Virus record (IMG/VR): IMGVR_UViG_3300050821_004395
Location: 1 to 48,586 of that record
Source of the DNA: a virus
Reading direction: 5' to 3' (one strand)
Length of the DNA: 48,586 nt
Position 1 is the stretch's first letter; each line of letters opens with the position of its first letter. Made by a program: the position numbers and the translations under genes. The notes under the pieces are model-generated. The model had not been told where the DNA came from. It saw nothing but the letters and a program-made list of their open reading frames with translations, and ran no database searches. Below are positions 3,220-48,086 of this stretch, piece after piece.

Positions 3220-3242
3220 GTAACTGATACTGAGGGACTTTA

Positions 3243-7899: not shown

Positions 7900-8613
7900 A
7901 TGAGCGATCCCTGCGTAATCTGTGGATGTAAAGAATCCCCATTTGGATCTGGTGATGGGGAATACACCCGTTGTGTCCATTGTGGAGTTCTCAGGACTCG
8001 CTACTCCTACAATGCTGAAATGTATGGAGAAGCTTATGCCAAAAACTATCTTCTCTATGCAGAGAGCACTACAAATACTCCTCTGCAGCTATTCAGAGTT
8101 GGGCTGGTATCTAGGTGGCTACACAGAGGGGATAAGATTTTAGACGTTGGGTGCTGTGTTGGTGAGTTTCTTGGCTTTGCTGAGAAGTATTACAGCTGTG
8201 TTGGGTTTGAACCTAACAAGAAAGCCATAGCAAAACGCAGATGCAAAGCGAAGATCCATTCTACTATGAATGGGATGATCCTACCATCTAAATGCATCAC
8301 GATGTTTGATGTATTAGAGCATATAGAAAAACCAAGAGAATTTCTGAAACTTCTTTTCACGTACTTATCCCCTGGTGGGATCTTTGTCATAACAACTCCT
8401 GATGTACAAGCAGTAGGAGATAAGGGACTCAAAACGTGGAAACACTATAAGCCAAAAGAGCATTTATTTCTTTACTCTGAACTCAGTTTGGAGACTCTTG
8501 TGCAGAGTGTGGGACTTCAGATTTTACATTGGGGTCGTGAGGAGAGTGATATACGTCCTGATAATCCTAATGGAGACATCATGACTTGTGTAGCTAGGAG
8601 GCCATCATTATGA
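7900..8613 (+). CDS. Class I SAM methyltransferase with N-terminal zinc ribbon
   Basis: A 237-residue protein. Residues 5-32 carry a zinc ribbon: CVICG, then CVHCG. Residues about 80-180 form a Methyltransf_23-type Rossmann domain: motif I ILDVGCCVGEF, the acidic end of strand 2 (GFEPN), FDVLEHIEKP, and LSPGGIFVITTPD. The GD..TWKHYKPKEH stretch matches C- or O-methyltransferases that act on nucleotide sugars or glycans; the substrate is inferred from the neighbouring glycosyltransferases. ATG 7900 follows the previous stop by 3 nt. The end overlaps the next gene (ATGA). Confidence 0.85.
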   Translation: MSDPCVICGCKESPFGSGDGEYTRCVHCGVLRTRYSYNAEMYGEAYAKNYLLYAESTTNTPLQLFRVGLVSRWLHRGDKILDVGCCVGEFLGFAEKYYSCVGFEPNKKAIAKRRCKAKIHSTMNGMILPSKCITMFDVLEHIEKPREFLKLLFTYLSPGGIFVITTPDVQAVGDKGLKTWKHYKPKEHLFLYSELSLETLVQSVGLQILHWGREESDIRPDNPNGDIMTCVARRPSL

Positions 8614-9575
8614 GATTTCTTCTTCCGCAGGGGATTGGTGATTCAGTCTGGGCTCTACATAAAATTCAATCTGTTGCTAAATATTATGGGGCTGTGGGCA
8701 TAGAAGTCTATCTTAACTGTGCAGAGGAAAGCGAGGTTGAGAACAGAGCCCTAGACTTTGTTAAGAGATTCAAATTTGTTAACCATTCTGGTATGTTGCC
8801 TGGATTTCCGATCCATCCCAAAAAGCCCGTAGATGAACTAGGCAGATACAATTACATCCCTACTGGGTGGACAAAATACGGTGGGGAGGATTTGTACGTC
8901 ATGATACCGAATGGACATCTAGAGAGAGGATTTCGTCTGGAGTGGTGGCTTCCCCAACACGAAATAAATTGGGATATAATGAAAGACTTCTCCATAACAG
9001 ACGAAGAGAGAAAACCTGTAAAAGAGATTAAAGACCAGATCGGTGATTATGCTGTTTTCTACATTGGTCCCTTGCGTGGGAATACAGAGGAGGGACACAA
9101 TCGTGGTCCACTGTGGAAACCAGAGGATTGGCTAGAATTGGGAAAGAGAATCCACGCTGAGTTTGGTTTGAGTATCCTAGTGGTTGGTGCTCCCTACGAC
9201 GAATTGTACTATCAGGTTTATATTGAACCATTCATTGATCGAGCCTATTGGTACAATCTGATTGGACAAACAAATGTTGGTGCTCTCTACGCTCTCACAC
9301 AGGGTTCTAAATTCGTAATCTCCTACCAGTCTGGAGTTGGAATTGTGTCTAGCTACTTGGGAGTGCCAGTGGGAATTTTCTGGAGACCAAAAGGTGATTC
9401 CATAAATCCAGAGATATACCTCTCTTTCGAAGAAGACATGGCTTCGGCTTGGGTTCGTCCTGATGTCTTAGACTCTGGTAATCATCTTCCGCTCATTTAC
9501 GGAAGACACGGAGTTTCATACATTATGGAGGCTATCAAAGAGAGGAGATGGCATGATCATAAATCTCTATTATGA
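8610..9575 (+). CDS. GT9-like glycosyltransferase
   Basis: A 321-residue protein resembling the heptosyltransferase (GT9, GT-B fold) family. The N-terminus is FLLPQGIGDSVWALHKI, the usual glycine-rich GxGD loop. A second Rossmann domain has VFYIGPLRG, then LSILVVGAPYDE, then LIGQTNVGALYALTQGSKFV and SYQSGVGIVSSYLGVP, matching the donor-binding part where a Ser/Gly loop holds the sugar nucleotide. Family members transfer sugars from ADP- or other nucleotide sugars. Donor and acceptor are unknown here. ATG 8610 overlaps the previous stop. Confidence 0.75.
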   Translation: MRFLLPQGIGDSVWALHKIQSVAKYYGAVGIEVYLNCAEESEVENRALDFVKRFKFVNHSGMLPGFPIHPKKPVDELGRYNYIPTGWTKYGGEDLYVMIPNGHLERGFRLEWWLPQHEINWDIMKDFSITDEERKPVKEIKDQIGDYAVFYIGPLRGNTEEGHNRGPLWKPEDWLELGKRIHAEFGLSILVVGAPYDELYYQVYIEPFIDRAYWYNLIGQTNVGALYALTQGSKFVISYQSGVGIVSSYLGVPVGIFWRPKGDSINPEIYLSFEEDMASAWVRPDVLDSGNHLPLIYGRHGVSYIMEAIKERRWHDHKSLL

Positions 9576-9762
9576 CGAACTCAATTGGGCGAACGCAAAG
9601 AGAGCTGAGAATGACATTAAGCACAGCTTTCTCAACACATTCATAGAAGCTTGTTTCCGTGCTGATGCACAGAATTACGAAGTCCTGCGTCCAGCACTCA
9701 GATTCTTCATGGGGAAATATCCAGCTAAGGAGGATCTCAAAGTGGAGAGGAGTGAAACATGA
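9553..9762 (+). CDS. Small unknown protein of the glycan island
   Basis: A 69-residue protein starting at ATG 9553 with AGAGGAG at 9541-9547, inside the end of the previous gene, and ending with an ATGA overlap into the next gene. It is Asn/Ala/Phe-rich and helical (ANAKRAENDIKHSFLNTFIE). No family recognised. The overlaps on both sides make it a real coupled gene. Confidence 0.65.
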   Translation: MIINLYYDELNWANAKRAENDIKHSFLNTFIEACFRADAQNYEVLRPALRFFMGKYPAKEDLKVERSET

Positions 9763-10685
9763 AAGTCCTATATCTCTCTGGGGCAAGAGGTCCAGACTAT
9801 TTATGTGACGTGATCTTCCATGGGCTACGCTCTCTTCTCGGTTCAGACGTTGTGGATGTGAATCGTCTGAATTTCATGTACAGGGAGACGGCTGCTAATT
9901 GGACTGCGTTCACTCTGTACAATCTCTTGCCAGCAGATCCAGAGCCAGATAGATCTGATATAGAGCACAAGATCAGAACCAAGTTCTTCGATATCATACT
10001 TTACGGATCAGTGCTGCGAGATCGACAATTTCTTCCACTCGTGTTGGAAACCTATCCCCACAATAGAATTGGTTTCTTGGATGGGGAAGATGAAATTGAT
10101 ACCAGCTACATTGGCTATGAGCGTATTCCAGAGCAGAATCTTCACTATTGGGAACACCCGGGCATGACCGTACCTCGTGACTGCCCATACTTCAAGCGAG
10201 AATTAACTTCTACATCCCGTGCTATCCCAATCAGCTTCGGTATTCCAAAGGAGAAGATAAACGATCCTATTCCAGACAAGGTTCGCCTGATGGCACTCTG
10301 TGATCCGCGAGACCGCAGCACCTATGTCTACAGCATGGAGAATCAAGCGGACTACTATCGTCAATATGGGGAAAGCTATTTTGGATTCACTCGTAGGCAG
10401 GGTGGATGGGATTGTATGAGGCATTATGAAATCATGGCCGCTGGGGCAGTCCCCTACTTTGAGAACATTGAGAACTGTCCAGAAGGTACTTTAACCTTCC
10501 TCCCGAAGGACAGTCTAAAGACTGCTAAGATTCTCCATGACAACTGGACTGGTAGCAAAGCAGACTTGGAGGGTCGAGCAGATTTGGAGGGATACAGAAC
10601 AGTTTCTAACAGAATTAGATTTGCGCTCATGAACTATCTAACCACAGAGGCTTTGGCAAAGTATGTTCTGGAAAGGGTAAAATGA
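9759..10685 (+). CDS. Glycosyltransferase-like protein (GT-B type, C-terminal domain clear)
   Basis: A 308-residue protein. The start MKVLYLSGARGPDY is a typical first strand and Gly loop. The best signal is near residue 220-245, CMRHYEIMAAGAVPYFEN, which matches the RxxEaxAaGavP signature of group-1 and exostosin-like glycosyltransferases; its Glu contacts the donor sugar. The N-terminal domain is divergent, with FDIILYGSVLRDRQFLP. The substrate is not deducible. Translationally coupled on both sides. Confidence 0.65.
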   Translation: MKVLYLSGARGPDYLCDVIFHGLRSLLGSDVVDVNRLNFMYRETAANWTAFTLYNLLPADPEPDRSDIEHKIRTKFFDIILYGSVLRDRQFLPLVLETYPHNRIGFLDGEDEIDTSYIGYERIPEQNLHYWEHPGMTVPRDCPYFKRELTSTSRAIPISFGIPKEKINDPIPDKVRLMALCDPRDRSTYVYSMENQADYYRQYGESYFGFTRRQGGWDCMRHYEIMAAGAVPYFENIENCPEGTLTFLPKDSLKTAKILHDNWTGSKADLEGRADLEGYRTVSNRIRFALMNYLTTEALAKYVLERVK

Positions 10686-11260
10686 ACATTGAGAAAGCTC
10701 TAACCATAGAAGGAGGAATGAATCCTCTGGAATTGGAATGGTTGGCTGAGAAGGCTTCCAAATGCTATCAGGTTGTTGAGATTGGATCGCTGAGAGGAAT
10801 GTCAGCCAGGGCCATGGCGGATAACATGTTGGGAGATAGCTCTATCTACTGTGTAGACCATTTCCATGGTAGTGAAGAACATGGAGATGCATTTTCTAAA
10901 GATGACAGTCTATACAGACTGTTCAAAGCTAACCTTCGTGATCACATAGAAAGTGGAAGAGTTATCCCAGTTCCTATGGCTTCCGTAGAGACAGCAATTC
11001 TGTTCAAGAAGGTGAGAGATGAGCAGAAGAGAAAATATCCGTCCTTAGATACAGCTGACTTTGATATGATCTTTATCGACGCTTCTCATGACTATGACAG
11101 TGTCAAAGCTGATATTCAATCATGGGGACCACTATTGAAGCCTGGGGGTCTTCTCTGTGGGCACGACTATGGCCATCCTCCAATAGAACGTGTAGTTAGA
11201 GAATTATTTCCAAACAATCATCGCCCTGTTCCGGGTGGCAGCATATGGGAGGTTATATGA
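10682..11260 (+). CDS. Class I SAM methyltransferase (Methyltransf_24-like)
   Basis: A 192-residue protein with motif I VVEIGSLRGMSARAM, the second-strand acidic residue in YCVDHFHGS, IFIDASHDYDSVKADI, and LKPGGLLCGHDYGHP. The ASHDYxxVxxD pattern is characteristic of Methyltransf_24/cephalosporin-hydroxylase-like enzymes, in which His and Asp residues may bind a metal. The likely role is sugar O-methylation, given the neighbourhood. Start ATG 10682 overlaps the previous stop; the end overlaps the next ATG. Confidence 0.8.
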   Translation: MNIEKALTIEGGMNPLELEWLAEKASKCYQVVEIGSLRGMSARAMADNMLGDSSIYCVDHFHGSEEHGDAFSKDDSLYRLFKANLRDHIESGRVIPVPMASVETAILFKKVRDEQKRKYPSLDTADFDMIFIDASHDYDSVKADIQSWGPLLKPGGLLCGHDYGHPPIERVVRELFPNNHRPVPGGSIWEVI

Positions 11261-11802
11261 ATCAGCGTGAGCAAGAAATCAGTAATGTCTTCGAGAGTCT
11301 GAGACCAGAAACGGATAAATTTCAACATGGGTATGCTCCAGTCTATGCATCTCTTCCTTGGCAGGACGTTACGTCCATCTTTGAAATAGGCATAGATAAA
11401 GGGCATAGTCTATTGGCTTGGACTAAGATATTTCCACATGCCAATGTGTATGGGATTGATACAGATCCCAAAGTTGTTCGTGATGACATTATTCTACATC
11501 CGCGTATCACCTTTGAAAGAGGAGACGTAAAGACCTATGAGACGGACAAGATGTTCGATGTCATAATTGATGATTGTCTGCACGATCTGGATACGATTTC
11601 CGTAGGCTGGTACCGCTTCCGGGACAAATTCAAAATGGCTTACATCATTGAAGACGTCAGGCCTGAAATAATGTTCCAGGTCTACGAACTAGTAGCAGCG
11701 ACCAATCCAGAACTCCAAACAATTTTTTGGAGAACATCAGATTGGAAAGGGGATGTCACTTTTAGAATGAGCGATAGCAACTGCTTTATCGTGAGGAGAT
11801 GA
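11257..11802 (+). CDS. SAM methyltransferase-like protein
   Basis: A 181-residue protein. ATG 11257 is chosen over the in-frame ATG 11245 because GGGAGG lies just before it and it forms the ATGA overlap with the upstream stop. Motif I is IFEIGIDKGHSLLAW, followed by YGIDTDPKVV, FERGDVKTY and FDVIIDDCLHDLD. The DDCxH pattern resembles class I enzymes of the demethylmacrocin/macrocin O-methyltransferase group. It looks paralogous in fold to its two neighbours, but the sequences have diverged well beyond recent duplication. Confidence 0.75.
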   Translation: MNQREQEISNVFESLRPETDKFQHGYAPVYASLPWQDVTSIFEIGIDKGHSLLAWTKIFPHANVYGIDTDPKVVRDDIILHPRITFERGDVKTYETDKMFDVIIDDCLHDLDTISVGWYRFRDKFKMAYIIEDVRPEIMFQVYELVAATNPELQTIFWRTSDWKGDVTFRMSDSNCFIVRR

Positions 11803-11803
11803 A

Positions 11804-12403
11804 ATGATTTTCAATGTGAGAGACAATGCTGGCAAAGCTGATATGGGCCAACGTGGAGCTGAATATCCTGCATGGGTTGCTATCTGTGCAGCAGCAGGAG
11901 TAAAAACCTACGTTGAAGTTGGCTGTGGAATTGGAAGAGGATTGATGCGATTACGTGCAGCAGGAGTATCCAAGGTAGTTGGAATTGACTTGTGCCCACA
12001 TGCACCTTCTGTCTTTGTTGAGGAACGCCCAGGAGACACTGACTTGGGCTACATCTTTGGTGATAGTAGTAGTGCAGAAGTTGTTCAGAAAGCTCTAGAA
12101 TTTTTAGGGGGAGAGCCTGATGGCGTCTTCATCGACGCTGATCATAGCTATGGGAAATCGAGAAAAGATTACGAAGTGTGGTGGCCCCATGCAAGGATTC
12201 TCTTAGGATTCCATGATGTATTGATGGATCACGCTGACAGTGTGGGGACTCTTTGGAATCAACTCAAACTAGACACTCGTTCTTTGGAGCTCTATTCTCG
12301 CGATCGCAAATCTGTTTTGGAGTGGATGGATCAGGGAGCTCTAGACGCCTCTCCAGACGGTCGTCTAGCAGCTGGAGGAATTGGTATCCTATTCAAGGAG
12401 TAG
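11804..12403 (+). CDS. Class I SAM methyltransferase-like protein
   Basis: A 199-residue protein. Motif I is YVEVGCGIGRGLMRLRA, then VVGIDLCPHAP, then GVFIDADHSYGKSRKDYEVW and ILLGFHDVLMDH. The DADHSY...D and HD motifs again match the Methyltransf_24-like group. GAGGAGA precedes ATG 11804. It is the third methyltransferase in a row (10682-12403), which suggests either several methylation sites on one glycan or several different sugars. Confidence 0.78.
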   Translation: MIFNVRDNAGKADMGQRGAEYPAWVAICAAAGVKTYVEVGCGIGRGLMRLRAAGVSKVVGIDLCPHAPSVFVEERPGDTDLGYIFGDSSSAEVVQKALEFLGGEPDGVFIDADHSYGKSRKDYEVWWPHARILLGFHDVLMDHADSVGTLWNQLKLDTRSLELYSRDRKSVLEWMDQGALDASPDGRLAAGGIGILFKE

Positions 12404-12405
12404 CT

Positions 12406-12549
12406 ATGAAAACCGAAGAAGAGATACAGAAAAGACTCAAAGATTTGAAATCTTGTCGTTCAAGTAGTAAGAATCTTTGGCTTAAGTTTACAATAGAAGA
12501 ACTAGAATGGGTAATTTCTAAGAGAAAGACTGCCAAGAGGAAGCTCTGA
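12406..12549 (+). CDS. Small basic helical protein
   Basis: A 47-residue Lys/Glu-rich protein, probably a helical hairpin or short coiled coil (TEEEIQKRLKDLKSC, then FTIEELEWVISKRKTA). AAGGAG at 12395-12400 gives ATG 12406 an ideal ribosome site, and the stop touches the next start. No family recognised. Confidence 0.65.
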   Translation: MKTEEEIQKRLKDLKSCRSSSKNLWLKFTIEELEWVISKRKTAKRKL

Positions 12550-13353
12550 ATGCTGATTGATGCCATGCTATTCTGTAACGAACTGGATCTCTTAGAGATC
12601 CGATTGCATGAGCTTGATCCAATAGTGGACAAGTTCGTGATCGTAGAGTCTCTTGGTAGAATAGGATCCTCAGAACTTAAACCTGCTTTCCTTAAAGAAA
12701 ACTGGGAATTTGTAAGATCCTTTGAGAAGAAAATTCATTACGTTCTTCTAGAGGATCTAATTCCACCATTTGATGGAAGTCGAGAATCTCCATGGGAAAG
12801 GGAATGGTATCAAAGGAACCATTTATTGCAAGCAATCAGAGAAATCTGTAGTTCGGAAGATGACATAGTCACCCTCTCTGATTGTGACGAAATCCCAAGG
12901 ATGGAGACTGTTAGGGACAATCTGAAATCAGAGCTTCAAGTTCTGGAGCAGGATCTTTTCTACTACACTGTTAATAATCGTCTAAGCTATGGAAGGGCAG
13001 TTAACATAGGTAGTCTTCGGGAGATTGAGAGAGCAGGAGGACCTCAGGCAGTACGAGGTAAGAGAGGAGAATTGCCTGCAGTGAAAAATGGAGGATGGCA
13101 TTTTAGCTTCTTTGGGGGAATAGAGAAGATAAAGTTCAAGCTGAAAAGCTATTCTCACGCTCTAGACGACCTCTGCCAACAGGCTTCTAAATTTTCTGAC
13201 GAAAAGATTAGGGAGCTGATCTTAACAAGGAAAGATCTCTTCTTACACGATTTCCCAGATCAACAACATTGGAAAAGTGATGATCCACGATTGCCAAAGT
13301 ATTTTCTGGAACATCCAATCAGTTTTAGACACTTCACTGAAGAGGGCATATGA
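12550..13353 (+). CDS. GT17-family glycosyltransferase (GnT-III-like)
   Basis: A 267-residue protein matching Glyco_transf_17. It begins DAMLFCNELDLLEIRLHELD, then DKFVIVESL, WEREWYQRNHLL, the metal-binding-type VTLSDCDEIPR, and the late GGWHFSFFGG and FRHFTEEG. The eukaryotic founder of the family adds bisecting GlcNAc to N-glycans; phage and bacterial members add unknown sugars. The length equals the catalytic core without a membrane anchor, so it should be cytoplasmic. Translationally coupled to the next gene. This is one of the clearest family matches in the island. Confidence 0.88.
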   Translation: MLIDAMLFCNELDLLEIRLHELDPIVDKFVIVESLGRIGSSELKPAFLKENWEFVRSFEKKIHYVLLEDLIPPFDGSRESPWEREWYQRNHLLQAIREICSSEDDIVTLSDCDEIPRMETVRDNLKSELQVLEQDLFYYTVNNRLSYGRAVNIGSLREIERAGGPQAVRGKRGELPAVKNGGWHFSFFGGIEKIKFKLKSYSHALDDLCQQASKFSDEKIRELILTRKDLFLHDFPDQQHWKSDDPRLPKYFLEHPISFRHFTEEGI

Positions 13354-14255
13354 AAATTGGAATTGTGTTCGTAAGCACTGGTGGTAACAAAACTATGCGT
13401 GCTATCCGTTCTCTTAGGAGAATGGAGCCGGAGAGTCTTACAATCCACATCTGTATGGATGTGGATGCAAAATCTTGGTACTCTAGCCCTGCTGTGGATG
13501 AGTTTGAAAGACTTCCAAACGTAGTTGTTCGTCGTGTCCATGGCAACAAATTCTACGTGAACGGGATCATGAACCATGCAATGGCTTGGATGAAGGAATT
13601 AGGCTACGACCACGTTTGCATGCTACATGACGATATTATCTTTTCACCGTTCAAAGATCATGCTGGAGATCTTTCGCACTGGTTCAAGATGGTAGAAGTA
13701 AATCCACTGTTGTCAGTGGCTTCTGGGATTACCCTGAGTGCAGTGGAAGCTATCACTCCTGAGCCTGGAATTCCTTGTGTACCCAGACCGCCAGAATTCT
13801 GGGATTCTATGGACTTGGAATCTGAAGAATTTTGGACAAGGCTAAGATTGAATGGAAACTCCCCAGAATATCTTGACCAAGTACACCAGGTCTTTCCAGA
13901 AGGCTTAGGTTGGTTCCACGAATATTATGGAGTCGCAAAAATAGGTCGTTGCACTCGCTTAGGCTCTACTGGTCAAATTGTACCAGTGTCAACCTGGGAA
14001 TTGGTTGGGAAATTCGACGAGACGTTCGGGGTCTTCTACGATATGGAGTATCCTGTGGAGTGCTACCGACGAAGACTTCCTCCTATCTACATTATTCCTA
14101 ACATTCCATTTCTACATCTTCATAACCAAAGCCATGGACCAAGAGACCCTTCTGACAGAACTCTTTACCACAACTGTGTGGATGCCTGGTACCGCAAGTT
14201 TACCAAGGAGCTCGTGGATGAATTCCACCAAAATATGGGAAAGGATTATTTCTGA
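13350..14255 (+). CDS. GT2-like glycosyltransferase (GT-A fold)
   Basis: A 301-residue protein. The start MKIGIVFVSTGGNKTMRAIRS and the central YDHVCMLHDDIIFSPF, with an HDD in the DxD position, identify a metal-dependent GT-A enzyme. ELVGKFDETFGVFYDMEYPV resembles the acceptor-side aspartate region of GT2 members that is usually GxFDExFxxYxEDxD. C-terminal NIPFLHLHNQSHG supplies a His that often binds the metal. Donor unknown. Overlaps on both ends. Confidence 0.75.
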   Translation: MKIGIVFVSTGGNKTMRAIRSLRRMEPESLTIHICMDVDAKSWYSSPAVDEFERLPNVVVRRVHGNKFYVNGIMNHAMAWMKELGYDHVCMLHDDIIFSPFKDHAGDLSHWFKMVEVNPLLSVASGITLSAVEAITPEPGIPCVPRPPEFWDSMDLESEEFWTRLRLNGNSPEYLDQVHQVFPEGLGWFHEYYGVAKIGRCTRLGSTGQIVPVSTWELVGKFDETFGVFYDMEYPVECYRRRLPPIYIIPNIPFLHLHNQSHGPRDPSDRTLYHNCVDAWYRKFTKELVDEFHQNMGKDYF

Positions 14256-14959
14256 TGGCTAGTGTAGATCCAGAACTGATTCTTAAACAATTCGAGCTTT
14301 CCAAGGGAGATGATCCCCATATCTTTGGTGGCGAGTGTTTGAAGGTAGCCTCAGAGATAGAAACTAACTACAGAAAATCCACCTATGATCATAGACCATT
14401 TCTACCAAATTTTGAAGAAGACTCTCCTTTCTATCTTGAGCAATACAGGATAGGATACGCTTGCTTCAAGAGAGAGGTTGCAAAAGTTTTGAAGCCAAAG
14501 ATCATCGTGGAAATTGGGGTAGGAATTGGGATAGCAGCTTTGGCGATGATGGACGGATCTCCACAGTCTTCATACTTTGGGATTGATAATGATGAGTATG
14601 TATTTCCTGTATCCCCAGCGATAATACCTACTCAATTTGTTAGTGGGTGGATGGATGCGAAATCATACCCTTTCCACATTGTAGTTAATGACAGTCAGCA
14701 AATGGAAAAGATTCCTTTCTGTGATTTGGTTCATGTAGATGGAGATCATAGAAGAGAAGCTGCTAGGAACGACGTTGGTCTAGCTTGGCGCTCAGAAGCA
14801 AAGTGGATACTGTGCGATGACGCAAGGGATGCAGAAGTAGTCGCTGGGATATTTGAGGCTCTTGCTCTAGATTTGAAAAGAGGAAGTGTGGATTGGGCAT
14901 ATTTTGGAGACACGTGGACTGGTAGCATACTCATTCGTACAGATCACAGGAAAGGATGA
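14255..14959 (+). CDS. Class I SAM methyltransferase-like protein
   Basis: A 234-residue protein. Residues about 80-110 give motif I IIVEIGVGIGIAALAMM and FGIDNDEYV; residues about 160-180 give LVHVDGDHRREAARNDVGLA followed by WILCDDA. The VDGDHxxxxxxxD pattern again fits the Methyltransf_24-like group common in this island. The N-terminal 75 residues are an extra helical region. Coupled by TGATG and ATGA overlaps. Confidence 0.7.
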   Translation: MASVDPELILKQFELSKGDDPHIFGGECLKVASEIETNYRKSTYDHRPFLPNFEEDSPFYLEQYRIGYACFKREVAKVLKPKIIVEIGVGIGIAALAMMDGSPQSSYFGIDNDEYVFPVSPAIIPTQFVSGWMDAKSYPFHIVVNDSQQMEKIPFCDLVHVDGDHRREAARNDVGLAWRSEAKWILCDDARDAEVVAGIFEALALDLKRGSVDWAYFGDTWTGSILIRTDHRKG

Positions 14960-15855
14960 ACGTGCCACTTACTCTATTAGTCCCACCAGGAATTGGAGAC
15001 TTCAGTGCAATGTATCAGAAGCTCTGCTGTATAGATCGGGAAATAGTAATCAGACCATCTGCAGATGCTCCTGAGAGAATTGGACCCTTTCTAGACATCC
15101 TCCCAAAAGTAAAGAATGGTGGATACTCTGGTCATTCGACTAATGTCTCTGTATTTCAAACTCTGCCTCCTGGTGTAGATTTGGCAGGTCTACCAGATGG
15201 TGTGTACATTCTGGCAATCAATTCCTTTCTTGAAAATGGAGGAAAGGTTGCTGATTGGCTTCCTGGGCCAACAGAGTATCATTACGATTATCTCCTTTCT
15301 CAAGACCGTATGGAATCTCTGAACTCTTTCTATGATCAGCTGTCTGGAAGACCAAAAGTTGGAGTCTACTGTTCTGCTTATGGAAACTCTAGACATTGGG
15401 GTTTCTGGGGAACTGAAGAATGGAGAGAATTTATGTCTCTGTTACGAGATATACTTCCTCCACCAACTGAATACATTTTCATTGGCGCAGAGTACGACGT
15501 CCAGATTGCTGATTACTTAGCGAACTGGATGAGTATCACTGGTTTCAGAGCACATGACACTCTTGGTCTGTTTCATATCTCAGCTACGATGGAACTGATC
15601 AAGAGGCTTGATTATTTCATTTCCTTTCCTTCTGGTTTGGGATTCTTGGCTGATGTAGTCAGGACTCCAAATCTGATGTGGTTCCCAAAACATCTGGATC
15701 CGATGAGAGGGACATTTTGTGATCCAGAACAGTACGAACGGAAGCAGTCTTTGCATCGTGTCTTTGCATCTCCACAGGTAGCATTTGAAGAATTTAAACT
15801 GTTTGGTCTAAAACACTTGGAGGAAAGAAGCTATGCCAACAACCGTCACGAATGA
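14956..15855 (+). CDS. Divergent GT9-like glycosyltransferase
   Basis: A 299-residue protein. It starts LTLLVPPGIGDFSAMYQKL, the same glycine-rich GxGD loop as the 8610 protein. It also has KVGVYCSAYGNSRHWGFWG, YIFIGAEYDVQIADYLA and YFISFPSGLGFLADVVRTP, which correspond to the donor-binding strands and the Ser/Gly loop of GT9 enzymes. Very short N-terminal domain for the family, so donor or acceptor recognition may differ. The last 23 nt overlap the next gene. Confidence 0.65.
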   Translation: MNVPLTLLVPPGIGDFSAMYQKLCCIDREIVIRPSADAPERIGPFLDILPKVKNGGYSGHSTNVSVFQTLPPGVDLAGLPDGVYILAINSFLENGGKVADWLPGPTEYHYDYLLSQDRMESLNSFYDQLSGRPKVGVYCSAYGNSRHWGFWGTEEWREFMSLLRDILPPPTEYIFIGAEYDVQIADYLANWMSITGFRAHDTLGLFHISATMELIKRLDYFISFPSGLGFLADVVRTPNLMWFPKHLDPMRGTFCDPEQYERKQSLHRVFASPQVAFEEFKLFGLKHLEERSYANNRHE

Positions 15856-16987
15856 ATTTGGAAGTAAGGTTCTAGAGTACACTTGGGAGGAATACCAACA
15901 ACGTCTGAAGCAAAGAAAGCCTCTCAAGGCTGACACCGATCTGAATGACAAGGACTTAGTAGTCAAACACACTTGGGGACTTGGAGACATCCTGTATTCT
16001 ACGGCAGCCCTTAGAGGTCTCAAGCTAAAATATCCAAGGTGTAGGATTCATTACATCTGTACAAATCCTGACATCTTGGAGAACAATCCAGATGTTGAGA
16101 AGATCTATCACTTCATGGAATTTGGTTCCTTGCTGGAGCTTGGTGATAGTCTGCTCAAAGAAGGGAAGGGAGATTGGTACTGGTTGGATTATGACGTACC
16201 ACTGAAAGGTGGGTACGATTACAAGATCCACCTCAGGACCAAACCACAGTTGAACGAGTTCATGCGAAGTTTGCTACTGAAGAATCCTAAGGACCTATCT
16301 GGTGATGAGAGAGAATTTGTCAATCAGGCCAGTAGTACAGTCATCACTAGATATAAGATGATCGCTCTGGACATGTACTGTAAGCATGCCTTCGTTGATC
16401 CTCCAGAGAAGTCTGTGTACTACTATCCATACGATCATGAGCTAGAGGTAGCTAGGAAGTTTATGCAGAATGCACGTGATAAGGGATACAAGGTGATCAC
16501 TCTCCTCCCACATGCGAGTACCAATTTCAAAGACTACCCACACTGGAGAGATGTGATTCGTCTGTGTCCTCCGAAGTATTTCTGGTTGGTGCTTGACAAT
16601 TGGGCTCGTGGATCTACCTGGGCTGGTCCAAATATACAAGATTGTACTGGTCTGTTCAGAACGAGACCTGCCCAGGCTATGGTGATAGAAGCTGATCTCT
16701 GCTGCTCCAGTGATACTGGATTTTTGTATCCTAGAGCGGCACGCAATAGACCATGTGTAGTGACATATGGACCCCATGAGCCAGAACCTTTCCTGCATTA
16801 CTTTCCTTCTGCACATGGTCTCCGTGTACCTATGCTCCAGAAGACTGAAGGGATGATAGGCATGTGCTCTGTTGGGTGCTATATAGACACTACAAGCTGT
16901 CATCAGAAAGATCGTATAGCACCATGCCTTATGGAACTCTCACCAGAGACAGTTGCTGGGAAGGTGATGGAACTTTTGGGGGAGTAA
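15833..16987 (+). CDS. GT9-family glycosyltransferase (heptosyltransferase-like)
   Basis: A 384-residue protein. VVKHTWGLGDILYSTAALRGLK is a good GT9 N-terminal loop, followed by RIHYICTNPDILENNPDVEKI, the usual second strand. The C-terminal domain has VITLLPHAST, YFWLVLDNWARG, DCTGLFRTRPAQAMVIEADL and SSDTGFLYPRAAR, matching the donor-binding face. Residues 340-365 carry a Cys cluster (MCSVGCYIDTTSCHQ...C) common in phage and bacterial members. ATG 15833 has GGAGGAAAG upstream. Last gene of the island. Confidence 0.8.
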   Translation: MPTTVTNEFGSKVLEYTWEEYQQRLKQRKPLKADTDLNDKDLVVKHTWGLGDILYSTAALRGLKLKYPRCRIHYICTNPDILENNPDVEKIYHFMEFGSLLELGDSLLKEGKGDWYWLDYDVPLKGGYDYKIHLRTKPQLNEFMRSLLLKNPKDLSGDEREFVNQASSTVITRYKMIALDMYCKHAFVDPPEKSVYYYPYDHELEVARKFMQNARDKGYKVITLLPHASTNFKDYPHWRDVIRLCPPKYFWLVLDNWARGSTWAGPNIQDCTGLFRTRPAQAMVIEADLCCSSDTGFLYPRAARNRPCVVTYGPHEPEPFLHYFPSAHGLRVPMLQKTEGMIGMCSVGCYIDTTSCHQKDRIAPCLMELSPETVAGKVMELLGE

Positions 16988-36883: not shown

Positions 36884-37799
36884 TGATATTAAGGAACATT
36901 TTGCTGCTGTAAAGGAGACCAATGAGGGATGGCGAGCCAATTGTCCCATGTGTGGGGACAATGAGAAGAAGCTATACTGGAACGTAGACAAGGGAGTAGG
37001 TTGCTGCTTCCATTCGGAGTGTCCATGGTTCAAAGATCGCGGTGGGGTGACAGAATACCGTCTAAAAGCATACTTCGAAAAGGAAGGGATAGAGGTTGTT
37101 GTTCCAGAGGTCATTAAAGCCGATCCAAAGTCCAAGCTGAAACTGCCAGAAGGTTTCAGGACGCTGAAAAGCATGCCGGATTACCGTAGTGAGCCGATCT
37201 ATGACTATTTGGACTCCAGAGGGTTGCGTCGTAAGATTGTAAACATGGCAAGAGTAGGTTACGTCCGTGAAGGAGATCTCTGGGGCTACATGATCTTCCC
37301 GGTCTTCAATTTTGATGGTCAGGTGATCTATTGGCAAGGGCGACGCTTTAAGAACAGGAAATCCAAGTTCTACAATCCTACTTCTAGCGTCCGTGATGAA
37401 ATCTTGTATCAGGTTCGCTGGCCAAGAAAGCCAAAAACCTGTATCGTTGTGGAATCCATAATCAACGTTCTAACTCTGGAAAGCAATTGGGGCGAAGACG
37501 ATGCGGTGATCATGGGAACCTTCGGAACATCTATCACGGAGGAACAATTCTATAAGATTCTGGAATACAATGGTGTCATCAAGGAAATAGTTCTTGCTTT
37601 GGATCCAGATGCGCTGCGTGTCGCGTTCGACTTCGCTGACCGATTGGGCAGCATAGTTCCAAAGATCAAGGTCCCAATGTTTCCTGATGGTGAGGATGTA
37701 AATTCACTTGGCTTTAAGAAATCTCGCCGTCTGATTCGTGACGCGTCGCTCTACAATTACAAGAACCGGACACAACTTTTGCAGAGAGGGAAACTGTGA
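36876..37799 (+). CDS. DnaG-type primase with zinc ribbon and Toprim domain
   Basis: A 307-residue primase. Residues 22-49 form a zinc ribbon (ANCPMCGD then CCFHSECPWF). The middle has YIRE-like DLWGYMIFPVFNFDGQVIYW and RRFKNRKSKFYN; the Toprim part has CIVVESIINVL (catalytic Glu), VLALDPDA (DxD) and DGEDVNSLG. It makes RNA primers and is probably coupled to the DnaB-like helicase, whose gene it overlaps. There is no separate helicase-interaction C-terminal domain. The stop overlaps the next GTG start. Confidence 0.87.
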   Translation: MASDIKEHFAAVKETNEGWRANCPMCGDNEKKLYWNVDKGVGCCFHSECPWFKDRGGVTEYRLKAYFEKEGIEVVVPEVIKADPKSKLKLPEGFRTLKSMPDYRSEPIYDYLDSRGLRRKIVNMARVGYVREGDLWGYMIFPVFNFDGQVIYWQGRRFKNRKSKFYNPTSSVRDEILYQVRWPRKPKTCIVVESIINVLTLESNWGEDDAVIMGTFGTSITEEQFYKILEYNGVIKEIVLALDPDALRVAFDFADRLGSIVPKIKVPMFPDGEDVNSLGFKKSRRLIRDASLYNYKNRTQLLQRGKL

Positions 37800-38101
37800 A
37801 GGATTTGGAATTGAGTTACATTGCTGGTGCTATTGATCACAGAGGAAAAGTCTCTGAGGATTCTAGAGGCTATCCTTACGTCTCTATAAGAACACTTGGA
37901 TCTCTGCCGAAGAAATTGAAGAAGGAATTTGGTGGGACGTGTTTCAGGCATCAGGGTGGAGATAAGAAAAAGAAGCAGAAGCCCAAAAAGTGGTGGTGGT
38001 ATAAGGTGACCGGAGAAAAAGCCAAAATTCTGTTGCAGGAGATTTCTCCTTTTCTGAGAAGGTACAAGCGGGAGGCTGATGGTATAATCGCTTCAAAATA
38101 G
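37796..38101 (+). CDS. LAGLIDADG-like protein without catalytic acid
   Basis: A 101-residue protein. The start LSYIAGAIDHRGKVS aligns with the LAGLIDADG helix (LAGLIDADGS), but the final metal-binding acid is replaced by Arg16. The rest, including YPYVSIRTLGSLPKKLKKEF and WWWYKVTGEKAKILLQEISP then FLRRYKREAD, follows the family's strand-helix pattern. A single-motif member would act as a dimer; with Arg in the active site it is probably DNA-binding only. GTG 37796 overlaps the primase stop. It lies next to the structured RNA tract, so an RNA or DNA binding role there is possible. Confidence 0.68.
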   Translation: MKDLELSYIAGAIDHRGKVSEDSRGYPYVSIRTLGSLPKKLKKEFGGTCFRHQGGDKKKKQKPKKWWWYKVTGEKAKILLQEISPFLRRYKREADGIIASK

Positions 38102-38170
38102 GGCGACCTAAAAATGAGCGATCTCCGATCAGTCCTGGCTTGCGCAATTAGTCCTTTACTTTGGGGCTGA

Positions 38171-38600
38171 AAAGGAGTAACCTATTACTAACGATTGTAG
38201 GTTAGCTAAAAGCTAACCTTTGCTCTTTGAAAAATAAAGGTTCTCGAGCCGGAAGACCGGAGCCGGGGATAAACAGTAGCTCAGCCCTAGCAAACAAGCC
38301 GCTAGGGACGGACTGATAAGGACGGCGACGGGCAAGGCAAGAGTAGTGGGAAGTCGGGGACGACCCGGAAGACCGCGACCCTAAGTAGCGCGCAAGCGCA
38401 AATAGTCCTCCATTCAGTGAGAAGGTTATGCGGTCAAGCCCACGAGGGTAGCAGGCTCGAAGAGAGAATTTGAGAAAATTCTCCCACCGTAGAAAAACGA
38501 TGTATGGGGATTGGCCCACCGTAAACTATGGTTGAACCTATATAAGAGGAACCGCGAGACAAACCTTCAGCGGGGCAAATTTGCTCCAAATGGAGAGACC
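38171..38600 (+). ncRNA. Structured RNA tract, left part
   Basis: No convincing ORF. Local helices: AGGTTAGCT/AGCTAACCT (38199-38219, loop AAA), CCCTAGC/GCTAGGG (38285-38307), CGGG/CCCG near 38355-38367, GCGC-GCAA-GCGC near 38388-38399 with a GNRA-type loop, and GAGAATTT/AAATTCTC (38464-38483) with a GAGA loop. CCGGAAGACCG occurs near 38249 and nearly again near 38365. The density of perfect stems and GNRA loops resembles large ornate bacterial or phage RNAs such as GOLLD and ROOL, but no family could be assigned by eye. Confidence 0.5.
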
Positions 38601-38603
38601 CAA

Positions 38604-38702
38604 ATGAGAAACTGCGATGTTCCAGGTTGTATAAAAAAGGTTGTTGGGAAAACAAACTACTGCAAGAAACATCAGAAGACTGGGAAGAAACTAGCAGCGT
38701 AG
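38604..38702 (+). CDS. 32-residue zinc-knuckle mini-protein inside the RNA tract
   Basis: ATG 38604 has GGAGAG 6 nt upstream. The peptide has CDVPGCIKKVVGKTNYCKKH, matching the CxxxxC...CxxH treble-clef half found in many phage zinc and HNH proteins. It is the only clear coding island in the 38.1-39.34 kb region. Its stop is followed at once by a strong hairpin. Confidence 0.55.
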   Translation: MRNCDVPGCIKKVVGKTNYCKKHQKTGKKLAA

Positions 38703-38705
38703 AAC

Positions 38706-38724
38706 GCGGGGAAGTTTTCCCCGC
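38706..38724 (+). terminator. Hairpin after the zinc mini-protein
   Basis: GCGGGGAA (38706-38713) pairs perfectly with TTCCCCGC (38717-38724) over a GTT loop; AGAAC (38701-38705) can pair with GTTCT (about 38730-38734) outside. No U-tract follows, so it may be a weak terminator or part of the RNA fold. Confidence 0.5.
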
Positions 38725-38740
38725 TGAGGGTTCTGTCTCG

Positions 38741-39335
38741 GCTAGAGAAAAAGTATAGAGCGCTAGGACGCACGGTGAAACAGTTGGAGTACGTCGGGAT
38801 GACGTATACCCAGGCGACGGCCGCAGTTGTCCACCAGCTAGGGACCACCTAGCGAAGCGAAATAGCGCGAGAGAAAATTCTCGGGTCATGCCAGCGGGTC
38901 CTCAGGCGATCATCACCGAAAAGGAAATTCCACCATGTCAGTTAGTTGCTGCGTTGCCAAGCCAAGCGCAGGGAAAAGGACAGAGTGGATAGGTGTGCGG
39001 ATAGCGTAGGCGAACCTATTTATAGGATTCTTCGCCAAAGACGCACCAAAAAGGTTTGCGGTTAACTCTGAACCGTCGTCCGACAGACCGGACGTAAAAT
39101 GTTGTGGGTGATTCGTGCAACCAAAACTTCAACCCGTCGCAAAGGAGAAGTGGAGGAAACGCAGGGCAAGCCAGGAAACTGGAGCAGGAGCTTAGCAAAC
39201 TCCGAAAGCCTCTGTGTCTTGCTTCTCCTTTGTGGCGACAAGGCTGCTCTCGTTTAGGGGATAGGAACTCCGTCTTCCAAGCGGAACCTATTCTGGTCGC
39301 GGAGAGCAGCCCTGCCGCCAACTGGCGGAAGAGGG
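38741..39335 (+). ncRNA. Structured RNA tract, right part
   Basis: Helices include TACGTC/GACGTA near 38790-38806, GCTAGG/CCTAGC near 38839-38855, GGCGAA+CCTAT / ATAGG+TTCGCC (39009-39036), CGTCCG/CGGACG (39077-39094), GTCGC+AAAGGAGAAG (39136-39150) with CTTCTCCTTT+GCGAC (39222-39239), CCAG-GAAA-CTGG near 39169-39180 inside it, GGCTGCTCT/AGAGCAGCC (39242-39250 with 39303-39311) and CCGCC/GGCGG near 39315-39328. The long-range pair of 10 and 5 bp enclosing a GNRA hairpin is the strongest sign of a folded RNA. It ends at the ribosome site of the SWIM gene, so part may be a 5' leader. Confidence 0.55.
38935..39009 (+). CDS. Possible 24-residue peptide within the RNA tract
   Basis: ATG 38935 has AAAAGG about 12 nt upstream and 24 codons to TAG at 39007. 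The peptide (SVSCCVAKPSAGKR...) is basic with no motif. The spacing is poor and the region is structured, so it may be chance. Confidence 0.2.
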   Translation: MSVSCCVAKPSAGKRTEWIGVRIA

Positions 39336-39343
39336 AAAAACGA

Positions 39344-39544
39344 ATGATCCCAATGCGTATCCTCAGTCGGGTCCGGCTGTCCAATGGCCGGATCAACTAC
39401 AAGGTTAATTCCACAAGCGATGCAAGGAAACGCTATACTGTTCAGTTCTCTGGCAAGACGCCCAAGGGCTGTTCTTGTAGAGGCTGGATTTTCAACCGTG
39501 TCAACTGCCGACATATAAGGTTCGTGAAAGGAAAGGTGGCCTGA
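39344..39544 (+). CDS. SWIM-type zinc finger mini-protein
   Basis: A 66-residue protein. The C-terminal half GCSCRGWIFNRVNCRHIRF is a SWIM zinc finger (CxCx(n)CxH). The N-terminal part has strands RILSRVRLSNGRINYKVN and YTVQFSGKT. ATG 39344 is chosen because AGAGGG precedes it; the longer frame runs through the structured RNA region. SWIM fingers bind nucleic acids or proteins. A second one is encoded at 45831. Confidence 0.72.
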   Translation: MIPMRILSRVRLSNGRINYKVNSTSDARKRYTVQFSGKTPKGCSCRGWIFNRVNCRHIRFVKGKVA

Positions 39545-39545
39545 C

Positions 39546-39863
39546 ATGTCCATGAGGAAATCAACCCGTCAGGAGCTACGGAAGGCTAGAGAGCTCCTGC
39601 GATTCTGTCTACGCGGTAAGGTTTGCTGGTTCAGGTTCTGCCGCAAACCTTTACTAAACGATGTTTCATACGCCAAAGATGGCGACGGCCAGGGAAGCCC
39701 TATCTCCAGGCGGATAACCATCCACCACAAGGACGGTGACCACGACAACGATGACCGGCGGAACAAGAAACTGGTCCACACCAGCTGTCACAAACGATAT
39801 CACATACGAAAACGGCGGCGAGAAGAAAAGGCCGCAAGGAGGCAGAATGGCAAGGCCATATAA
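39546..39863 (+). CDS. HNH endonuclease-like protein
   Basis: A 105-residue protein. VCWFRFC and CHKRYH supply zinc-binding cysteines and the HNH core ITIHHKDGDHDNDDRRNKK with His-His and Asn/Asp positions fits a His-Cys-type HNH nuclease. Small phage HNH proteins act in genome packaging, recombination or homing. It could be catalytic, as both His and the Asn/Asp metal-contact positions are present. AAGGTGG lies upstream. Basic, Arg-rich tail. Confidence 0.75.
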   Translation: MSMRKSTRQELRKARELLRFCLRGKVCWFRFCRKPLLNDVSYAKDGDGQGSPISRRITIHHKDGDHDNDDRRNKKLVHTSCHKRYHIRKRRREEKAARRQNGKAI

Positions 39864-40003
39864 AACGTTCTGTATAGAAAGCAAGGAACCTGAGGCTGAC
39901 GCCGAAGGAACGGCGTGAGCTTGAGGAAATTCTGAAGCGTACCACTTTACGGGTAGGCAAGCAACGGATTAGGCTCACGCTTTTGGAGTACGAAAATTTC
40001 TAG
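39847..40003 (+). pseudogene. Small helix-turn-helix-like gene split by a +1 frame change
   Basis: AAGGAGG precedes ATG 39847, but the zero frame stops after 23 codons (TGA 39916-39918). The +1 frame over 39872-40003 encodes a protein-like stretch, LRLTPKERRELEEILKR and GKQRIRLTLLEYENF, similar to the start of IS630-type transposases (LTPEERxELExLxR). It has no start of its own. Either a single-base change broke the gene or a frameshift joins the two parts. Confidence 0.4.
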
Positions 40004-40017
40004 GTAGTAGGGTTATA

Positions 40018-40081
40018 GCCTAGCTGTAGCCGGAACGCTTGTAGGACTCCCTATTGGTTCCTACTGGGGACCTGTAGGGGG
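40018..40081 (+). ncRNA. Structured RNA element, copy 2
   Basis: Lies in the gap between 39.9 and 40.1 kb. The core GGAACGCTTGTAGGACTCC (40032-40050) is nearly the same as at 31632-31650, and both copies have TGGT a few bases later. GTAG (40026-40029) can pair with CTAC (40061-40064), replacing the GTGGT/ACCAC of copy 1; CCTAC (40060-40064) can alternatively pair with GTAGG (40074-40078). Placed just upstream of the AAGGAGG of the next gene. Likely a structured leader or processed RNA. Confidence 0.5.
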
Positions 40082-40109
40082 ATTTCATTTAGCCCAAGGA
40101 GGCTAACCT

Positions 40110-44328: not shown

Positions 44329-44544
44329 ATGGCTGGACTAGCGAAAAAGCCTGCTGCGAAAGCGGCAGCTATTCTGAAGAAGTACATCGGATCCGCTAAG
44401 GATATGCTGAAGATGCTCGATGAGCTCAAAGAAGCGTCCAAGAATCGTGGATTCCGAAAGTCACTTCGAAGGATTGCCAAGGCAGTGAGACGTTCTGAAA
44501 AGAAACTGACCAAGGCAGTCAACAAGGCCAAAGTAGCTGCATAA
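44329..44544 (+). CDS. Small Lys/Ala-rich histone-like protein
   Basis: A 71-residue, very basic helical protein (LAKKPAAKAAAILKKYIG, then AKAVRRSEKKLTKAVNK) similar in composition to bacterial histone H1-like proteins. AAAGGAGGT precedes ATG 44329. A role in condensing or coating DNA is likely but inferred from composition only. Confidence 0.62.
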   Translation: MAGLAKKPAAKAAAILKKYIGSAKDMLKMLDELKEASKNRGFRKSLRRIAKAVRRSEKKLTKAVNKAKVAA

Positions 44545-44553
44545 TGCTGTAAA

Positions 44554-44653
44554 AACGGGCGGAGATTCGGATGCTCTGGGTTGAGACGGACTATGGCGTC
44601 CGTACGACTGGACGTAAAGAGCCAGCCTCAGAGCATCCTAGCCTCCGCCCGTT
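44554..44653 (+). ncRNA. Highly stable structured RNA between small genes
   Basis: AACGGGCGGAG (44554-44564) pairs perfectly with CTCCGCCCGTT (44643-44653), and GGATGCTCTG (44569-44578) with CAGAGCATCC (44629-44638). Inside, ACGGAC (44586-44591) pairs with GTCCGT (44598-44603), or alternatively CGTCC (44597-44601) with GGACG (44610-44614). The two inner helices exclude each other, suggesting a switch or pseudoknot. There is no U-tract, so it is not a normal terminator. The CGTCCG...GGACGTAAA part resembles the sequence at 39077-39098. Confidence 0.62.
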
Positions 44654-44677
44654 CAAATTTCTCAAAAGGAGAAAGTC

Positions 44678-45094
44678 ATGAAAAAGATTTCAAAGAAGCT
44701 TGAGAGGGAATTCCGTAAGTCTGCAAGTCAATTCATTGCTCGCATAATGGCAGAAGGTGCCATAGAAGAGGTCAAAGTAATGCCGATTGATCTCCAAATC
44801 TCCATCTTGAAGAAGACTGAGCGTTACTTCAAGGATGGGAAGTTCGCTCAGGACTCAAAGCAAGTCCAACGGAAGTATCTGAATTCTGCCGCCAAATGCC
44901 TCCAGACTCTTCAGGGTCAGATGGAGAGGACTATGGAAGCCATTCAAGGTGCTCTTATGATTATCCATGCTGAGCAGGATGCAAGAGATATTGGTACTGA
45001 ACCATCTGACAAAATCCTCTCAAAGGATGAGAGGAGACGGCAATCTAGACTGGAACGCTACAGAAGTAGAATCCAAAAGAAAGGAGGGAAATAA
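44678..45094 (+). CDS. Hypothetical helical protein
   Basis: A 138-residue protein, basic at both ends, with an alpha-helical centre (LNSAAKCLQTLQGQMERTME) and a KDERRRQSRLERYRSRIQKK tail. No family recognised. AAAGGAG precedes ATG 44678; the stop overlaps the next ATG. Confidence 0.65.
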   Translation: MKKISKKLEREFRKSASQFIARIMAEGAIEEVKVMPIDLQISILKKTERYFKDGKFAQDSKQVQRKYLNSAAKCLQTLQGQMERTMEAIQGALMIIHAEQDARDIGTEPSDKILSKDERRRQSRLERYRSRIQKKGGK

Positions 45095-46744: not shown

Positions 46745-47419
46745 ATGAATCAGAAGCGTATCCTTGAAATGGTTCAGAGAGAGGTGGCTACGATTCGAGA
46801 TACAGCTGACCTTCCTTCTGTACCAGTTGGGATGGAAGAAGACATGGTGAGGTTGGGGCATGATTCCAGAGATATTCTGGGATATCAACCTCTACACAAG
46901 AAGGCTGTCCTTGGTGGCAGTCGTCTTGCTAATACACTAATAGAACTCGGGATTGAGGTGCTGTCACCGACCGCTATCCTAGAGTACGAAAGCAAACTGG
47001 GTCGTCCAAATCGTTACCTCGTCACAATGGTAGAACAGGGAATGGGAGTATTGGATGAGGTAGATGATGGGGCAGACGATGAAGACGATGACGATGACGA
47101 CGATGACACTGACGAAGCTAATGACGAGAGACAAGCTCGTATAACAAACTTCGAGTGGTATCGTACCAACATTCAAGATTACTCCAAACCAATCCCTCCA
47201 CATGTTCTAGCGAAGGCGATCGAGATCAAGAAGGCTCTGCCAACCACTGAGTTCTTTGTTGAAGAGCTCAAGGCTGTTCCTGATCCTTTCCTGATCGCGT
47301 CCTTTGGCTCTAAAGATTACAAGGAGCAGTATTACATAGAAGTGTGGGAGGAGCCAACCTTCGAGAAACGAGCAACCAAGGATGCACCATCTAAGAGCAG
47401 TAACCGAAAGCAACGCTGA
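46745..47419 (+). CDS. Hypothetical acidic protein with Asp run
   Basis: A 224-residue protein. ATG 46745 is chosen because GGGGGAGGAG lies in front; an in-frame ATG at 46727 is inside that site. Residues about 112-125 are a run of Asp/Glu (DDEDDDDDDDDTDE). The second half is folded-looking and includes FEWYRTNIQDYSKPIPPHVL. The acidic run could mimic DNA. No family recognised. Confidence 0.65.
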   Translation: MNQKRILEMVQREVATIRDTADLPSVPVGMEEDMVRLGHDSRDILGYQPLHKKAVLGGSRLANTLIELGIEVLSPTAILEYESKLGRPNRYLVTMVEQGMGVLDEVDDGADDEDDDDDDDDTDEANDERQARITNFEWYRTNIQDYSKPIPPHVLAKAIEIKKALPTTEFFVEELKAVPDPFLIASFGSKDYKEQYYIEVWEEPTFEKRATKDAPSKSSNRKQR

Positions 47420-48086
47420 AGACCGCAAGCGCCGTCTAGAAGCACAAAAACAAAACAAAGAAATGCGCTCCGCCAAGCTAGAACGTACTCGGCATGGCGG
47501 AGCGCATGACGACGTCGAGTTAGTGAATATATTTCGCTCGCTTGGCATAGACTTCTTCTCCGTACCAAGGGACCAGTTATTTGGGCTCATTCAAAAGACA
47601 TGGGAAGGGCGTCGCATAGATGATATACCAGAAAGTGCGATTCCCTTCCTTTCTGAAAATTTCAATGTGAGACGAGTGTATGACGGAGAAGGTAGGGCAC
47701 TCGTTCACTTTGAAAATCTCGAGGAGGAAAACATGAAGTTGCATACCCAGCTTGCAGAAATCTCTGGTCAGCCTAGAAAGATAGTAAAGGCTGTCATGGA
47801 GGCATTCCTCAAGCAAGTACGTCGGTCACTCAAGGCGGATCGTGGCATCAGAATCCCAGAATTTGGGAAGCTCTCGGTCCGGTATCGAAAGGCCAAACCG
47901 AAACGGAAAGGGAGAAATCCCTTTACAGGAAAGGAGGGATGGTTCAAGGCCAAGCCGGCAAGCAACAAGCTCAGGTTCTCTCCAGCGAAGGACTTGAAAA
48001 GGTTCGTTGCTGAAAAGATCGAAGTCATTGAGCCGAAGAAAAAGAAAGGCAAGAAGGGCAAGAAAAGTAAGAAACATAAGAAGTAG
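47382..48086 (+). CDS. Protein with C-terminal HU/IHF-like DNA-binding domain
   Basis: A 234-residue protein. Residues about 118-215 match HU/IHF: LAEISGQPRKIVKAVMEAFL, RIPEFGKLSVRYRKAKPKRK, GRNPFTGKEGWFKAKPASNK and LRFSPAKDLKRFVAE. The final 20 residues are Lys-rich. Residues 1-115 are an extra N-terminal region without recognised motif. The start ATG 47382 has a poor site, while an internal ATG 47733 has a perfect GAGGAGG, so a separate HU product is probable. HU proteins bend and coat DNA. Confidence 0.8.
   Translation: MHHLRAVTESNAEDRKRRLEAQKQNKEMRSAKLERTRHGGAHDDVELVNIFRSLGIDFFSVPRDQLFGLIQKTWEGRRIDDIPESAIPFLSENFNVRRVYDGEGRALVHFENLEEENMKLHTQLAEISGQPRKIVKAVMEAFLKQVRRSLKADRGIRIPEFGKLSVRYRKAKPKRKGRNPFTGKEGWFKAKPASNKLRFSPAKDLKRFVAEKIEVIEPKKKKGKKGKKSKKHKK
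47463..47507 (+). repeat. Perfect 13-bp inverted repeat inside a coding region
   Basis: ATGCGCTCCGCCA (47463-47475) and TGGCGGAGCGCAT (47495-47507) are exact reverse complements with a 19-nt loop, located inside the N-terminal part of the HU-domain gene. This is unusual for coding sequence and may be an RNA control element or a protein-binding site. Confidence 0.6.
47733..48086 (+). CDS. Probable nested HU-like protein
   Basis: ATG 47733 is in frame within the 47382 gene and directly follows GAGGAGG at 47721-47727 with a 5-nt gap. The 117-residue product is the size of a stand-alone HU protein plus a Lys-rich tail. Whether both forms are made is unknown. Confidence 0.55.
   Translation: MKLHTQLAEISGQPRKIVKAVMEAFLKQVRRSLKADRGIRIPEFGKLSVRYRKAKPKRKGRNPFTGKEGWFKAKPASNKLRFSPAKDLKRFVAEKIEVIEPKKKKGKKGKKSKKHKK

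Follow-up and report, generated by a model that had tools for sequence, protein, structure and literature searches.

What is encoded at positions 38102-39343 of IMG/VR virus record IMGVR_UViG_3300050821_004395, whose 48,586 bases form the stretch analysed here (the window)? The tract follows a primase and a small LAGLIDADG-type gene and was proposed in an earlier note to specify a large structured RNA, either a member of a family such as GOLLD or ROOL or a novel class. To our knowledge, only a few classes of large ornate phage RNA have been described, and no function has been established for them. The tract probably encodes a long, structured noncoding RNA that spans about 1,150 nt (roughly 38190-39335), is headed by a boxA element and likely acts in trans. 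Comparison with two related phages shows a conserved position, a conserved leader, compensatory pairing and exchange of the genes in the linker and downstream. Transcription of the tract as one continuous RNA, its dependence on Nus factors and the place of its 3' end are predicted.

Genomic setting and coding content

Gene order around the tract in the window is DnaB-type helicase, primase, LAGLIDADG-fold gene, tract, SWIM gene, HNH gene and FtsK-type gene. A helicase search of viral contigs gave two IMG/VR environmental phages, here called L002 (91,991 bases) and L003 (92,914 bases), with helicases about 59% identical to that of the window; both keep the order helicase, primase, LAGLIDADG-like gene, then noncoding tract. 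A further match, L010, shows no difference from the window over 5,809 bases and contributes no independent homologue. In viral scans with patterns for helicase, primase, HNH, boxA and the K hairpin, only L002, L003 and L010 turned up, and no homologue was found among phage records by blastn or in genome_contigs searched with the helicase. The protein genes in and beside the tract are as follows.

37796-38101, forward strand: LAGLIDADG-fold protein of 101 aa, adjoining the tract upstream in all three phages (L002 10419-10730, L003 10252-10524)
38604-38702, forward strand: zinc mini-gene of 32 aa within the linker of the RNA, at the place where L002 has an HNH gene
39344-39544, forward strand: SWIM zinc-finger gene, starting 15 bases past hairpin T; its L002 homologue is 46% identical and starts at 12448
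39546-39863, forward strand: small HNH gene, 66% identical to the HNH gene within the L002 RNA

The upstream neighbour had been called LAGLIDADG-like from its sequence, and here a profile match to I-MsoI (E 1e-6) and the predicted fold agree. Its AlphaFold2 model (mean pLDDT 82) is matched by Foldseek to I-CreI and I-MsoI with probability 1.00. The second acid of the motif is catalytic in LAGLIDADG nucleases; its position is Arg in all three phages (AGAIDHRG, AGALDERM, AGLFDGRG). We infer a nucleic-acid binder devoid of nuclease activity, which might, as the earlier note supposed, bind the RNA.

Coding content within the tract is slight, as had been noted: the zinc mini-gene is the only supported gene in 38102-39343, and its product has weak profile matches only (phrog_144 HNH, E 0.014). 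It has no recognisable counterpart at the same place in L002 or L003. The L003 linker holds a short cysteine-bearing frame with no standard start codon nearby and no recognisable gene; a zinc-type gene 3' of the L002 RNA is a possible counterpart, on a cysteine pattern compared by eye only. Two antisense frames in the tract, of 151 and 126 codons, are without counterpart in L002 and L003. Comparison of all frames of the three tracts found no conserved reading frame inside the RNA. The sole conserved protein in that comparison is the SWIM gene 3' of the RNA, the next-best match being the DNA-level conservation of the leader read as peptide. ARAGORN found no tRNA genes in the window or in the L002 and L003 loci.

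Homology between the tracts is detectable at the DNA level. It joins the window and L003 over the promoter, hairpin and boxA (E 1e-11), L002 and L003 at the 3' end (E 5e-9), and the window and L002 at the K hairpin (E 3e-4). The leader is closest between the window and L003, and the 3' end between L002 and L003. The HNH gene sits within the L002 RNA but follows the SWIM gene in the window; in L003 it was not detected by a family scan. The first gene 3' of the RNA is SWIM in the window, zinc-type in L002 and FtsK in L003. Because flanking and linker genes shuffle around it, the RNA itself appears to be the conserved unit, and not a leader for one gene.

Two other regions of the window may be recorded here. 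Positions 39864-40109, which separate the HNH gene from the small gene that follows, form another gap, about 245 bases long and holding several inverted repeats; the 300-base window from 39902 has a folding z of -3.0. A long run of predicted genes (7900-16987), resembling methyltransferases and glycosyltransferases by eye, lies between capsid-type and tail-type genes.

The candidate promoter, hairpin and boxA leader

The 5' end of the tract carries three elements in close succession, which have counterparts in L002 and L003.

38155-38183, forward strand: candidate promoter TTTACT-17-TAACCT, at the same place and with the 17-base spacer in L002 (TTGCGT/TACAAT) and L003 (TTTACA/TATGAT)
38199-38219, forward strand: leader hairpin of 9 bp, immediately 5' of boxA in a boxB-like position, with 3 compensatory columns
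38221-38237, forward strand: boxA TGCTCTTTGAAAAATAA, the same in the three phages except for one Y; the 17-mer is single-copy in the window

By promoter consensus scan the L003 copy alone passes (10/12 matches, good), the window and L002 copies being weak. The hairpin has 8-9 pairs across the three phages and is followed in each by the rRNA-type boxA TGYTCTTTGAAAAATAA. In a Nitrospira MAG, the T form of the 17-mer lies 29 nt upstream of a 16S rRNA gene (the gene confirmed with the Rfam rRNA model). Most of its other copies in bacterial genomes have no rRNA nearby, and the identification as boxA therefore rests on position and conservation besides sequence. With these features, the 17-mer would be a boxA element heading an untranslated transcript, for which transcription, binding of NusB/S10 and resistance to Rho are predicted. 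We think that this leader, overlooked in the earlier note, is the most informative feature of the locus.

In reporters, boxA with Nus factors works against termination by Rho on long untranslated RNA; it also aids rRNA folding (PMC4807359). boxA has also been described ahead of long noncoding transcripts, CRISPR arrays among them (PMC7862264). A long untranslated RNA is preceded by the same succession of promoter, hairpin and boxA in the bacterial rRNA operon leader (boxB-boxA) and in boxA-led CRISPR arrays (PMC10250234, PMC7862264); the RNA downstream here, however, is neither rRNA nor a CRISPR array.

The exact boxA 17-mer was also seen elsewhere. In another IMG/VR record (phage contig L023, IMGVR_UViG_3300021400_001148, 354,809 bases; positions 2740-3290) it comes right after a Bacteroidetes-like promoter, TTTTTGTATATTTG, and is followed by about 500 nt that have no ORF of at least 70 aa and by a strong hairpin with a T-run. 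In the predicted fold of that tract the boxA end is paired to the 3' end; the tract folds no better than shuffles do (z -0.8) and has no match in Rfam or among phage records. At 10950-11200 of L049, a hairpin, CTATCTATAAAGATAG, stands immediately 5' of the 17-mer, followed by about 200 nt of noncoding sequence. Both noncoding tracts are unrelated to that of the window. The genome of Desulfobacteraceae SURF_3 (L183, L188-L194) has eight copies of a repeated element with differing flanks that starts GTACAGGTTCAGAGG and contains a hairpin and the boxA 17-mer; its contigs all end about 22 bases past the 17-mer.

Domains, helices and compensatory change

Beyond the leader, the predicted RNA can be divided into a 5' domain, a linker bearing an open reading frame, and a 3' domain, the last on the basis of tract DNA homology, hand-aligned helices and folds.

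38239-38553, forward strand: 5' domain, containing a GNRA hairpin at 38388-38399; its closing helix is P1 (38239-38245 / 38546-38553), which has 6 compensatory columns
38562-38732, forward strand: linker that bears the ORF; its closing helix is PL, of 14 bp (38562-38575 / 38719-38732)
38719-39328, forward strand: 3' domain
39059-39075, forward strand: hairpin D of the 3' domain
39077-39094, forward strand: hairpin K of the 3' domain
39136-39150 / 39222-39239, forward strand: long helix A of the 3' domain
39242-39251 / 39302-39311, forward strand: hairpin H of the 3' domain
39315-39328, forward strand: terminal hairpin T of the 3' domain

Away from the anchors, neither global MAFFT nor automatic structure-aware alignment could be relied on, and helices were therefore aligned by hand. 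Across nine helix segments from three sequences only, chosen for pairing so that the comparison flatters them, 181 of 182 cells are canonical and 27 columns show compensatory double changes. Sliding the partners by 1-5 bases as a control leaves 62-94 canonical cells and 1-6 compensatory columns. The strongest single case is hairpin H, with ten pairs in each phage and five compensatory columns. The long-range pairing described in the earlier note as 10+5 bp is exact, joining GUCGC (39136-39140) to GCGAC (39235-39239) and AAAGGAGAAG (39141-39150) to CUUCUCCUUU (39222-39231). It is the covarying helix A, whose inner part has seven compensatory columns. Helix PL also encloses the HNH gene of L002, its mean pair probability being 0.98 in the window and 0.90 in L002.

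Unconstrained minimum-energy folds of the full sequences contain different sets of these helices in each phage. That of the window contains L, G, PL, D, K, most of A, H and T; that of L002 contains L, PL, D, K and H, helix A being absent; and that of L003 contains P1, G, A, H and T. P1 is absent from the window's own minimum-energy fold and is supported there by comparison only. GNRA-type loops, pointed out before, do cap perfect stems (GCAA 38392, GAGA 38472, GAAA 39175, GGGA 38357). Four GNRA-capped stems of at least 4 bp are observed against 0.95 in base shuffles, and four are reached in 5 of 500 shuffles.

Folding energy by itself does not set the tract apart in this genome. Positions 38102-38604 fold better than dinucleotide shuffles with z -2.9 (100 shuffles), as do 38703-39344 with z -5.5 (20 shuffles only); the 5' half of L002 is hardly above its shuffles (z -0.5). 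In genome-wide 300-base windows, the tract ranges from -1.0 to -3.6 and others reach -5.8, so that it is neither unique nor the most structured region. Two windows in or beside predicted genes, 44402-44701 (z -5.3) and 47402-47701 (z -5.8), out-fold it. Taken alone, the number of helices and the folding energy would not be proof of an RNA; stronger evidence comes from homology and covariation.

Known RNA families, alternative readings and a proposed mechanism

The whole window has no Rfam family at its cut-off. With relaxed thresholds, the three tracts gave no match to GOLLD, ROOL, HEARO, OLE, group I or group II introns or any other model beyond what chance gives. Matches to MIR164, speF and DAOA-AS1 scored far under their cut-offs and were set aside as chance. 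The earlier proposal of a large structured RNA, or a novel class, gains support from the homologous tracts in two phages, the compensatory changes and the lack of a conserved frame, whereas membership in GOLLD or ROOL receives no backing from Rfam.

The likeness to both families is nevertheless evident in outline, as analogy from three sequences and not as homology. GOLLD (RF02032) is phage-borne, longer than 800 nt and ornate, with a 5' region, a variable linker in which tRNA genes can sit and a 3' region that is better conserved (PMC12286853); it was not found in the 250 genomes searched. The tract shares with it the phage-borne large RNA and the variable linker between 5' and 3' regions. 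It differs from GOLLD in the missing Rfam model match, in a linker that holds protein genes, perhaps in its boxA leader, and in the lack of tRNAs, although neighbouring or embedded tRNA genes are frequent, not universal, in GOLLD and ROOL. ROOL (RF03087) is large and structured, occurs in phage and prophage and has a disordered variable linker (PMC12286853). The tract resembles it in being a large structured phage RNA with such a variable linker, but is without a match to its model and about twice its length. Two ROOL loci showed no clear boxA, the position of ROOL within those loci being unmapped. An RNA-only homo-oligomeric cage is a further mark of GOLLD and ROOL. The RNA probably represents a class of its own among large structured phage RNAs, with an rRNA-style leader; it would work like GOLLD or ROOL by analogy and has no detectable membership in either.

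Unrelated genes in the linker, and halves that diverge at different rates (leader best window-L003; 3' end best L002-L003), would fit a pair of separate RNAs flanking a small gene: the 5' one boxA-led and about 370 nt long, the 3' one independent of it and about 600 nt long. Against this, PL links both halves in the window and L002 (pair probability 0.98, 0.90), a consensus scan finds no shared promoter ahead of the 3' half, and both halves co-occur in 3/3 phages; we regard two RNAs as unlikely. Quite improbable, too, is a very long structured leader, either nut/put-like for antitermination or a regulatory UTR, serving the genes downstream. Such a leader would explain why boxA and hairpin look like those of nut and rrn leaders and why the RNA end adjoins a ribosome-binding site and start codon with no terminator after it. 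The downstream gene, however, varies by phage (SWIM, zinc-type, FtsK), the 17-mer is single-copy in the window and hence not part of a nut-site set, and antitermination does not need a conserved 3' domain of several hundred nt.

An ORF within a helix-closed loop, with HNH and LAGLIDADG genes close by and an HNH gene that lies within the L002 RNA but outside that of the window, recalls mobile self-splicing introns or other ribozymes that carry small nuclease-type genes in a structured-RNA loop. Yet group I/II models (E up to 5-10) match none of the three tracts and no conserved core was detected by Rfam. The flanking genes are intact with no host gene interrupted, and the tract has its own promoter and boxA and the same site in 3/3 phages, which leaves an intron very unlikely. 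Scarcely credible is a guide RNA for the neighbouring HNH protein in the manner of HEARO/OMEGA, although an HNH gene adjoins or sits within the RNA: the protein has only about 100 aa, with HNH-type matches only and no RuvC domain detected, no HEARO match was found, and L003 retains the RNA although the scan found no HNH gene there. The divergent primary sequence, and a folding energy that is not extreme genome-wide, could be expected of a non-functional spacer or decayed coding sequence, a reading that has hardly any probability in view of the compensatory changes, the conserved boxA leader and the lack of a shared reading frame.

The preferred reading, a single boxA-led structured RNA, would be realised as follows. 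Host RNA polymerase would initiate at the promoter before 38190, and the nascent hairpin and boxA would recruit NusB/S10 and other Nus factors in the fashion of an rRNA leader. Nus loading would render transcription processive across about 1.1 kb of mostly untranslated sequence, and the RNA would fold while tethered to the polymerase, giving 5' and 3' domains connected through a helix-pinched linker that tolerates small genes. The 3' end is a guess, since no intrinsic terminator follows the RNA. During infection, the folded RNA would most likely work in trans, with a structural role, as RNA or RNP, comparable to that of GOLLD/ROOL. A scaffold role for it, suggested by analogy, is possible but doubtful.

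The tract may stand for a novel kind of large phage RNA whose synthesis resembles that of rRNA, from its own promoter and with a boxB/boxA leader, along with a wider use of boxA by phages for long noncoding RNAs, for which the boxA-headed tracts of L023 and L049 would be further cases; we hold this broader view tentatively, at somewhat under an even chance. A boxA-led class would tie large phage RNAs to a defined host pathway, that of the Nus factors, and the link yields a testable prediction on how phages make long untranslated RNAs. That small genes are exchanged in the linker points to a way in which RNAs of this kind may acquire protein genes, and the boxA leader would provide a DNA signature by which more of them may be found.
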